Assembly: GCA_009785505.1 (NCBI GenBank)
Contig: WQWA01000004.1
Location: 1 to 64,000 of the forward strand
Length of the DNA stretch: 64,000 bases
From: Bacteroidales bacterium
GTDB taxonomy: Bacteria > Bacteroidota > Bacteroidia > Bacteroidales > P3
Direction of reading: 5' to 3'
This document shows positions 3,047-63,815 of the stretch, piece by piece (the first letter of the stretch is position 1; each line of letters opens with the position of its first letter). The notes beneath the pieces were generated by a model. That model saw nothing but the letters and a program-made list of their open reading frames with translations, was not told the DNA's origin and did not search any database. A program made the translations under genes and the position numbers.

Positions 3047-3078
3047 TTTGGTTATTTCGAAAATTATTTGTAACTTTG
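3047..3078 (+). promoter_or_regulatory. Promoter of ncRNA copy A
   Basis: TTTG at 3047-3050, a 20-nt spacer, then TAACTTTG at 3071-3078: both halves of the Bacteroidota vegetative promoter. The predicted +1, five bases after the box, is 3083, exactly the first base of the RNA's closing stem. The same TTTG-N20-TAACTTTG arrangement precedes copy B. Confidence 0.8.
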
Positions 3079-3082
3079 CAAT

Positions 3083-3229
3083 GTGAAAGAAACTTGCTTA
3101 GGTTCGATCGCTGATTAGCACAGACTACGGACTTCACTGGGGACTATGACCGCCACAACTGCCAAGACGTAGAAATTGGCACAAAGGAGTGCGATACCTT
3201 TGCTAAACAAGTTTCTTTCACTTTTTTTT
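3083..3229 (+). ncRNA. Structured ncRNA, copy A, paired with a convergent BECR-like gene
   Basis: A predicted RNA of about 147 nt. The closing stem pairs 3083-3096 with 3208-3221 (14 perfect pairs), then one mismatch and four more pairs (3098-3101 with 3203-3206). Inside are three hairpins: P1 (3119-3123 with 3137-3141, one mismatch), P2 (GCCAA 3161-3165 with TTGGC 3176-3180) and P3 (CAAAGG 3182-3187 with CCTTTG 3197-3202). The P1 loop carries CTACG (3125-3129) and the P2 loop CGTAG (3168-3172), allowing a kissing contact. A run of eight T (3222-3229) follows the closing stem as a terminator. The second copy at 63153-63301 keeps every element with compensatory changes. No Rfam family was recognised by eye; a 6S-like RNA is a weaker alternative because the hairpins and loop contact do not fit a single long rod. 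Confidence 0.8.
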
Positions 3230-3619
3230 CCACAGCAATGTTTTCTTGTCAAAAAAATCTTTCCGCATAACGGTTGCCGTTTTTATTTCGTAAAATCCTT
3301 TTTGCAGTGCATAATTCATTTCTATTGCAGTAGTTTTGGGTTTGCCGTTCCAAAGCACCAACAAAAGGGAATTTCCGACTCCTTTGTAAATTCTGTTGAA
3401 ATTAATTACGACCAAATCAACAAACATCTGTGGAGTCAGTCCAACTGACGCTAACTCTGCCTCGTGTCGATTAAAAATGTGTTTGAGGTGACTTTCGCAA
3501 ACATAGATATCGGCTGTTTCTCTGCCAATTTGGTCGGCAATTGTTTTTTTCAGTTTACCGATTTTTTTGTAGTGCTTTTGGTCTTCAATCCGAGGACGAT
3601 TTGTTGGTGTTTTTTTCAT
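3218..3619 (-). CDS. Small BECR/PBECR-like predicted nuclease, copy A
   Basis: A 133-aa basic protein. Its start (MKKTPTNRP) is set by the paralogue at 63290-63691, which has exactly the same length. Conserved blocks: NRPxIEDQKHYK at the N-terminus, the central HLKHIxNRH, then FVDxVVxNFNRIYxG, and LLWKKK at the end. From memory these resemble PBECR domains (phage Barnase-EndoU-ColicinE5/D-RelE-like nucleases); activity is not shown. The final Lys codons are the complement of the ncRNA's T-tract and the stop codon lies in the ncRNA closing stem, so gene and RNA transcripts overlap at their 3' ends. Upstream sequence is shared with copy B and with dprA. Confidence 0.75.
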   Translation of the reverse strand: MKKTPTNRPRIEDQKHYKKIGKLKKTIADQIGRETADIYVCESHLKHIFNRHEAELASVGLTPQMFVDLVVINFNRIYKGVGNSLLLVLWNGKPKTTAIEMNYALQKGFYEIKTATVMRKDFFDKKTLLWKKK

Positions 3620-3671
3620 GACTTTTGTGTTTTTTATGAATAATTTTGTTACGAACGAAACCCAGTTCATG

Positions 3672-3755
3672 TATATAACGCAGAAAACTCGATTTTCGTA
3701 TAAAAAAAAACTTAAAAAATGTTAAAATGTTGATAACTTTTAGGAATTGTTAATA
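3672..3755 (-). promoter_or_regulatory. Shared upstream control region of the BECR-like gene, copy A
   Basis: In gene orientation: TTATTAACA and TTATCAACA direct repeats offset by 20 bp (about 3729-3755), an AT-rich stretch, then a core at 3672-3706 containing TATACGAAAATCGA and ending in TGCGTTATATA. The same arrangement precedes the gene at 63290-63691 and dprA at 25548. The core has rough dyad symmetry around TCGA, so it could be an operator, an unusual promoter, or both. No TAnnTTTG box was seen for this gene. Confidence 0.6.
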
Positions 3756-3782
3756 AGCTTGCCGAGATTTCAAAAAAAATCG

Positions 3783-40121: not shown

Positions 40122-40442
40122 ATGAAAAAAGTATTGTTAGTACTTGCTGTTGCTGCTTTTGCAGTTGCTTGTGGAAACACGGGGCAACAAGGTGCAGCTC
40201 AAGGTCAAGCTACCGGAATTCACGCAGCAGGATGTTGCTCTGATGGTCCTACATGTTGTTCTGAAGGCTTAACTCAAGAACAGTGTGCCGAAAGAAAAGC
40301 TAGACTGGCTGGCCCTCAATGTTGCTCTGAAGGCTTAACTCAAGAACAGTGTGCCGAAAGAAAAGCTAGAGCTGCACAAGGCTGTAGTAGAGCCGCCGGA
40401 GAAGGCTGCAAAAGAGGAGACGAAGGTTGCGGCAGGTCTTAA
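40122..40442 (+). CDS. Small Cys-rich lipoprotein with tandem repeats
   Basis: A 106-aa predicted lipoprotein (signal ending AVACGNTG). The mature part has many Cys, mainly as CC pairs: GCCSDGPTCCSEG, then two copies of CCSEGLTQEQCAERKAR 22 residues apart, then single Cys in a Gly/Arg tail. The DNA repeats are 51 nt with one mismatch (40254-40304 and 40320-40370), so the duplication is recent. Paired Cys suggest metal binding or disulfide cross-linking in the envelope. Not recognised as a known family. Strong promoter and terminator make it a stand-alone, probably highly expressed unit. Confidence 0.8.
   Translation: MKKVLLVLAVAAFAVACGNTGQQGAAQGQATGIHAAGCCSDGPTCCSEGLTQEQCAERKARLAGPQCCSEGLTQEQCAERKARAAQGCSRAAGEGCKRGDEGCGRS
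40254..40370 (+). repeat. Two 51-nt tandem repeats inside the Cys-rich gene
   Basis: Copies at 40254-40304 and 40320-40370 differ at one base and are offset by 66 nt, keeping frame. Confidence 0.9.
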
Positions 40443-63116: not shown

Positions 63117-63148
63117 TTTGTGAAATTGGAAAAAAAATTGTAACTTTG
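63117..63148 (+). promoter_or_regulatory. Promoter of ncRNA copy B
   Basis: TTTG at 63117-63120, 20-nt spacer, TAACTTTG at 63141-63148; predicted +1 at 63153. Confidence 0.8.
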
Positions 63149-63152
63149 CAGT

Positions 63153-63301
63153 ACTGAAAGGAACTTGATTATCTACACGAAGATTAGCACAGGCGACGAT
63201 TAGAACTGTGGTCTATGAATGAAATAGTTGTCAAAGCGTCGAAGTTGGCACAAAAGAGAGTCGGCTCTTTTGCTCTGATTAAGTTCCTTTCACTTTTTTT
63301 T
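63153..63301 (+). ncRNA. Structured ncRNA, copy B
   Basis: About 149 nt. Closing stem TGAAAGGAACTT (63155-63166) with AAGTTCCTTTCA (63281-63292), then G·U, A-U, U-A, U·G and A-U pairs inward to 63171/63276. P1: CACAG 63188-63192 with CTGTG 63206-63210. P2: GTCAA 63230-63234 with TTGGC 63245-63249. P3: CAAAAGAG 63251-63258 with CTCTTTTG 63265-63272. P1 loop CGACG (63194-63198) can pair with P2 loop CGTCG (63237-63241). Eight T follow (63294-63301). Identical to copy A in the promoter -7 box, in GATTAGCACAG (63182-63192), CTATGA (63213-63218) and the distance between them, elsewhere diverged mostly in paired positions. Confidence 0.8.
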
Positions 63302-63691
63302 CCACAGCAGTTTTTTGCTTTCAAGATGTCTCTTTTCTTTTGTTAGAGCGGTTTTCACTTCGTAAAATTCTTTTTTGAGTGCCGAATTTATTTCGACAAT
63401 GGTTACCTTTGCATTTCCGTTCCAAATGACCAACTGCAAAGCATCTCCGTCTCCTTGATAAATTCGATTGAAATTGCTTACTACCGCATCAACAAACATT
63501 AACGGAGTAAACCCGAATTTTGCTAAATCGGTTTTGTGTCGGTTTAGAATGTGCTTGAGATGATTGTCGTCAATGTAGATGTCTGCCGGAATTTTGCCGA
63601 TCGCGTCAGCAATTGACTTGCGTAAGCGACCGATTCTTTTGTAATGCTTTTGATCCTCAATTTGGGGGCGGTTTGTTGTTCTCTTTTTCAT
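63290..63691 (-). CDS. Small BECR/PBECR-like predicted nuclease, copy B
   Basis: A 133-aa paralogue of the protein at 3218-3619, about 60% identical by eye. Shared: TNRPxIEDQKHYKxIG at the start, HLKHIxNRH, FVDxVVxNFNRIYxG and the final LLWKKK. The same relation to its ncRNA holds: the stop codon lies in the closing stem and the Lys codons cover the terminator T-tract. The upstream control region is shared with copy A and dprA. Divergent from lepA. Confidence 0.75.
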   Translation of the reverse strand: MKKRTTNRPQIEDQKHYKRIGRLRKSIADAIGKIPADIYIDDNHLKHILNRHKTDLAKFGFTPLMFVDAVVSNFNRIYQGDGDALQLVIWNGNAKVTIVEINSALKKEFYEVKTALTKEKRHLESKKLLWKKK

Positions 63692-63722
63692 ACGAATAAA
63701 TTTTTAGTTTTTTATTCACATC

Positions 63723-63815
63723 TATATAAACGCAAAAAAGTCATTTTTCGTATAAAAATTTCCTTAAAAAGTGTTAAAATGTTAATAACTTTCCGAAATT
63801 GTTAATAAGCCTGCC
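63723..63815 (-). promoter_or_regulatory. Shared upstream control region of the BECR-like gene, copy B
   Basis: In gene orientation two TTATTAACA repeats offset 20 bp, then the core at 63723-63758 with TATACGAAAAATGA and a final TGCGTTTATATA; one base longer than the other two copies. Confidence 0.6.

Follow-up and report, generated by a model that had tools for sequence, protein, structure and literature searches.

The locus raises the question of whether a structured RNA and a small protein gene that run head-on into each other belong together, and what each of them might do. The window, the whole stretch of 64,000 nucleotides that was analyzed, contains two such arrangements, modules A and B, each described in an earlier note as a TTTG-N20-TAACTTTG promoter followed by a structured RNA and a convergent gene for a protein of 133 amino acids. 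The coordinates are borne out at both loci, and the elements are as follows.

3047 to 3078, forward strand: Bacteroidota-type promoter of RNA A (TTTG at 3047-3050, N20, TAACTTTG at 3071-3078)
3083 to 3229, forward strand: RNA A, about 147 nucleotides (fold z -5.05, covariation, match to model R1)
3218 to 3619, reverse strand: gene A, 133 amino acids, predicted PBECR3-like BECR-fold RNase (PF18812, 18.5 bits; aligned with the folded protein B)
3665 to 3770, reverse strand: promoter/control region of gene A, not module-specific (pattern match at 3673-3702)
63117 to 63148, forward strand: promoter of RNA B (TTTG at 63117-63120, N20, TAACTTTG at 63141-63148)
63153 to 63301, forward strand: RNA B, about 149 nucleotides, with the architecture of RNA A (fold z -3.08)
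63290 to 63691, reverse strand: gene B, 133 amino acids, predicted PBECR3-like BECR-fold RNase (PF18812, 21.1 bits; AF2 model)
63720 to 63815, reverse strand: promoter/control region of gene B, not module-specific (pattern match at 63725-63754)

Proteins A and B are 62% identical, and each gene is solitary on its strand. The overlap between RNA and gene amounts to only ~12 nucleotides in both modules and lies mostly in the U-tract of the RNA, which is the antisense of the last lysine codons of the gene, with the stop codon touching the terminal stem. The 3' end of the gene is therefore part of the terminator, and the proposal that it is built into the 3' end of the RNA holds in both copies. 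Other copies in the genus have the RNA-promoter element at a similar distance.

RNA A is composed of a terminal stem, hairpin 1 (CAG..CTG), hairpin 2 (GCCAA..TTGGC), hairpin 3 (CAAAGG..CCTTTG) and the U-tract, and the loops of hairpins 1 and 2 are joined by CUACG/CGUAG, a kissing helix that in RNA B reads CGACG/CGUCG. The calculated folding energies are -44.8 kcal/mol for RNA A and -43.1 kcal/mol for RNA B, and no shuffled sequence was equally stable. In alignment A3 of the 10 genus copies, 90.1% of the cells pair compared with 34-51% in slid controls, and 18 pairs are changed on both sides compared with 7.5 in shuffles; because MAFFT misplaced part of hairpin 1, the counts for this hairpin are probably underestimates. 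The kissing helix is paired in all 10 copies, as CUACG/CGUAG in most and as CGACG/CGUCG in B, L011 and L014, and it is kept in distant homologues outside this alignment, L007 (CUACG/CGUAG) and L016 (CCACG/CGUGG). Compensatory changes in the aligned sequences support the fold including the kissing-loop helix, the evidence for the latter being confined to the PBECR3-like family. An Rfam search of the RNAs gave no family at gathering score, with weak matches all far below threshold, in agreement with the earlier impression that the RNA lies outside the known families. The RNA has no conserved open reading frame, for which reason a peptide antitoxin encoded in it was rejected; no direct repeats of at least 12 nucleotides occur in four RNAs, and the RNA alignments show no variable guide segment. 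The CGUN of several families prompted a reading of hairpin 2 as a mimic of a tRNA anticodon loop, which does not hold for other families and was abandoned.

Both protein scores against the Pfam family PBECR3 (PF18812) are below the gathering cut-off of 30, and the proteins are accordingly named PBECR3-like; the related L008 reaches 30.2 bits. The AF2 model of protein B has a pLDDT of 86, and its structural matches after realignment include CdiA-CT (7m5f, Z 6.7), BrnT (3u97, Z 6.4), a sequence-specific (colicin-type) RNase (3ao9, Z 5.7), RelE, YoeB and HigB. The Z scores of 4-6.7 are middling, and the weight rests on the coherence of the matches. The solved structures among the matches listed for protein B are BECR RNases; ToxN is not one of them, and its absence from these matches still leaves room for a ToxN-type fold. 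In an alignment of 14 homologues (alignment A2) residues G21, I38, H47, H52, N75 and L87 are invariant, H47 and H52 being helix histidines, and a Thr/Ser is present in the C-terminal strand. A helix histidine combined with a Ser/Thr in the C-terminal strand is a feature of the PBECR RNase active site according to Iyer et al. 2017 (PMC5512222). The proteins thus combine the N-terminal helix and sheet fold of the BECR superfamily with its helix His and C-terminal Ser/Thr, and A and B are predicted to be BECR-fold RNases distantly related to PBECR3. The suggestion that the protein is BECR-like accordingly gains support from the quality of the model and from BECR RNases as its top structural matches. 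A search of solved structures by sequence gave no meaningful match to the protein, and PADLOC gave none. For A/B-like proteins tblastn against phages and plasmids returned nothing, and no relative was found in the viral contigs scanned, alignment A2 being too divergent to serve as a query for these contigs. With tblastn, PBECR1 does have phage relatives in other phyla, where the Bacteroidota promoter rule does not apply.

In the genus, ten copies of the protein are located at dispersed positions in four genomes; both protein and RNA are absent from a fifth, G003. All 10 copies have a convergent RNA with TAnnTTTG located 128-161 nucleotides past the stop codon. The covariance model R1 gave 12 matches below 1e-8 in 120 genomes, 11 of them adjoining the protein, among these a match in G156, from another family and not used in building R1, with an E value of 1.7e-9. 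The twelfth match (L073) lies where the toxin gene is deleted and the toxin control region remains, and the kissing helix of this orphan RNA is no longer complementary. G004 has no insert at either site, neither at rplY, where module A sits and where the neighboring genes are still present, nor at lepA, the site of module B. At lepA, G003 carries an ORF6N-type gene and G001 one of KilA-N type, both domain names being taken from the sequence and the homologues that were scanned. Modules that are present or replaced by cleanly empty sites show that the module is gained or lost as a unit. Separately, the site upstream of lepA (L079-L082) is a hot spot, occupied by a PBECR3-like module, an ORF6N-type or a KilA-N-type gene depending on the genome, with one genome empty.

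RNA and protein identities agree in pairing A with L004, L003 with L005, L011 with L014 and L012 with L013 (dN 0.137 and dS 0.951 for the last pair). The divergence of the RNA follows that of the protein (Mantel r 0.68, 0 of 5000 permutations), so the two have diverged together as claimed, although linkage alone could produce this correlation and it is expected for any linked sequences. Every test of the pair gave the result expected of a unit (the empty site in G004, the convergent homologues), and the predicted convergent RNA is found beside protein homologues in the genus and in distant families. The two copies described as a duplicated module are real, but they are not a local duplication, since the module exists in many copies that are dispersed and move horizontally.

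The upstream control region that the two genes were said to share also exists, and for gene A it contains TTATTAACA and TTATCAACA elements (TATACGAAAA..GCGTTATATA). It is not module-specific, however, because the pattern upstream of A and B has 22 sites in the same genome (G000), many before unrelated genes; each relative has 17-30 sites and reversed controls have none. The genus-wide promoter/operator pattern is TATACGAAA-N8..16-GCGTT-AT-rich with a species-specific spacer, and it precedes comF-like, comM-like (ChlI), ssb, KilA-N, ORF6N, toxin-like and other genes; a competence-type regulon is our guess from the gene names. Because comM-like, ssb and other housekeeping genes follow it too, we rejected the idea that the region belongs to the module or marks the end of a transposon. 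Among the 22 downstream genes, a convergent -33/-7 element within 150 nucleotides is found at A, B, a PBECR3, an LPD13-like, two LPD3-like and a CdiA_C-like gene and is missing from the rest, so that of the genes under the control-region promoter it is the toxin-like ones that face a convergent RNA promoter. In the same genome, a CdiA_C-like, an LPD13-like and two LPD3-like genes (L119, L123, L126 and L132) have a convergent -33/-7 promoter 25-74 nucleotides past the stop codon, which makes them candidates for further modules of this type. For LPD3 we propose no BECR fold, as its predicted structure has a pLDDT of 45.

The convergent layout is constant across BECR families. Homologues from distant families and from the same genome, of the PBECR1 and canonical PBECR3 types, again have a convergent promoter with different RNA sequences. 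A convergent TAnnTTTG 55-170 nucleotides past the stop codon occurs at 32 of 35 BECR loci, not all of which are independent, compared with 7 of 48 control open reading frames in the window (Fisher p ~1e-12) and 17 of 92 at the same loci as the BECR genes. Nor do genomes from a single genus count independently of one another. An open reading frame of the window at 40122-40442 that fits the promoter rule was set aside as a chance control match. The same genome contains two canonical PBECR3 genes, L055 (G000:C12:26572-26946) and L057 (G000:C7:20640-20939), each with a convergent promoter to itself and an RNA that differs in sequence. In another genome a PBECR3-like gene is arrayed in tandem with two PBECR1 genes (L045/L051, G156:C266), and the promoter spacers separating them are nearly identical.

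In one other genus, 51 of 99 genomes have PBECR1, with 66 matches. A convergent -7 element accompanies 65 of 65 intact PBECR1 genes and one N-terminally shortened gene, nearly always 3 to 150 nucleotides from the stop codon, and no intact PBECR1 gene without it was found in these genomes. In a subset the element is so near the stop codon that the RNA would extend into the end of the coding sequence. PBECR1 RNAs have a covarying fold of their own, in which pairing reaches 95.8% and 9 of 17 pairs are changed on both sides compared with 2.1 in shuffles. Model R2 identified 39 RNAs in the 99 genomes, of which 29 adjoin PBECR1, all 29 convergent. Ten matches lie away from PBECR1, among them L190, L228, L229 and L231, which are weak or decayed, and L183 (G835:C3), where a PBECR1-type RNA adjoins an LPD3-like gene, and a PBECR1 gene with an RNA to itself lies nearby; related RNAs may there serve different toxins. 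At L178, L180, L186, L191 and L230 the promoter and RNA are kept beside a truncated or internally deleted PBECR1 gene, and the orphan L073 adds a similar case from the genus of the window. The RNA persists after toxin loss and not the reverse, as predicted for an antitoxin, and this asymmetry of decay suggests that the RNA has that role. The RNA sequences differ strongly between BECR subfamilies, so a single binding mode would be an assumption.

Taken from the sequences and the model, each locus is probably a toxin-antitoxin-like module of a BECR RNase and a convergent RNA antitoxin. The product of gene A or B would be a BECR-fold endoribonuclease, and the structured RNA, transcribed from a housekeeping-type promoter, would be compacted by its two kissing hairpins and would bind and block the nuclease. 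Both transcripts would run head-on into a common terminator region, so that independent promoters would set the levels of RNA and mRNA, that of the RNA presumably steady and that of the toxin probably conditional in this genus. A drop in the RNA, for example when a phage takes over, transcription stops or the module is lost, would free the nuclease. We infer in this scheme the transcription of the RNA, the RNase activity and toxicity of the protein, their direct binding and the trigger.

It is unlikely that the RNA acts in cis, as an antisense or terminator element that lowers the toxin mRNA by collision or 3'-end pairing in a type I-like way with no protein binding. RNA and gene do overlap at their 3' ends, and the PBECR1 RNAs L193-L198 and L201 seem largely antisense to the C-terminal coding region, but the overlap in A and B is confined to the few nucleotides described above while the non-overlapping RNA keeps a covarying fold, and the RNA is retained where the toxin is truncated. 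Somewhat less likely again is a role as a nuclease cofactor, the RNA serving as guide, scaffold or specificity RNA in a complex active against phage or host RNA. RNA-requiring nucleases exist elsewhere, and the consistent association of one type of RNA with one type of protein and the mobile distribution would fit, but RNAs that persist without an intact nuclease gene are odd for a cofactor, the alignments contain no variable guide segment and, given the fold match here, it also counts against a cofactor that to our knowledge the solved BECR RNases work without an RNA partner. It is improbable that the protein, rather than being a toxin, binds or processes a regulatory small RNA that acts on other genes; the multi-copy RNA with distinct loops would suit this and the toxin role of the protein is a prediction, against which stand the BECR fold with conserved catalytic-type His and Thr/Ser residues, the same domain families in phage polyvalent effectors (PMC5512222) and a patchy, mobile, decaying distribution typical of conflict genes. 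That the downstream element is the promoter of an unrelated neighboring small RNA, or chance, can be dismissed as very improbable, since it is already contradicted by co-occurrence (32/35 versus 7/48) and by the blind covariance-model searches, even though Bacteroidota genomes are rich in TAnnTTTG and 15-18% of control genes have one in range.

The preferred reading, an RNase toxin held by a convergent RNA antitoxin, invites comparison with known systems. In type III toxin-antitoxin systems the RNA lies upstream on the transcript of the toxin, with a single promoter, tandem repeats and ToxN-type toxins (PMC5086642). Shared with type III systems (ToxIN, CptIN, TenpIN, AbiQ) are a predicted RNase toxin with a small structured, pseudoknot-like noncoding RNA that has no conserved open reading frame, the co-divergence of RNA and toxin and the mobile distribution. 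The RNA here differs in being convergent, downstream and single copy with its own promoter and no tandem repeats, and the toxin model matches BECR RNases. With no upstream RNA, no repeats and no shared promoter the modules are by definition not type III, as the earlier note had argued for the convergent pair. In AbiF/RCd22 of Clostridioides difficile, RCd22 is upstream with a shared promoter and two motif copies (PMC12373285); a toxic protein held in trans by a structured noncoding RNA of ~100-130 nucleotides is a feature of that system and is proposed here, whereas AbiF is not among the BECR families found. PBECR1 and PBECR3 (PF18809, PF18812) are domains of phage polyvalent proteins and also occur as solo versions in phages (PMC5512222). 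The protein domain is thus shared with these phage proteins, whereas no RNA partner is described in the available part of PMC5512222, in whose text the terms "small RNA" and "noncoding" are absent. RelE/ParE and other BECR type II toxins share the fold, but a type II antitoxin is an adjacent protein of the same operon and the partner here is an RNA on the other strand; type II is rejected, as the RNA has no conserved open reading frame and genes A and B are solitary. Type I, an antisense RNA on the mRNA of a small hydrophobic toxin, does not describe a 133-amino-acid BECR-fold protein with so short an overlap. The conserved RNA-protein module is real, belongs to a large family of Bacteroidota (gut-type bacteria and their mobile elements) and is apparently undescribed: the RNA is not described in the literature found, and as preprints and most subscription journals lie outside that search a description elsewhere is possible.

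The evidence tilts slightly toward a new widespread class of toxin-antitoxin systems in Bacteroidota, in which several BECR nuclease families each have their own single-copy convergent structured RNA; the proposed class has PBECR1 and PBECR3 and possibly also the LPD3, LPD13 and CdiA_C-like proteins. If true, this would be a gene layout absent from every recognized toxin-antitoxin type, and it would add RNA antitoxins to the BECR/RelE fold, which is known mainly for protein antitoxins. Phages and conjugative elements often carry PBECR and similar domains, and the literature found is silent on how solo versions are tolerated; a convergent guard RNA would explain this tolerance. The search rule that follows is a small BECR gene with a convergent TTTG-N20-TAnnTTTG promoter within ~170 nucleotides past its stop codon, and with this class many small genes of Bacteroidota would be explained as parts of toxin modules.
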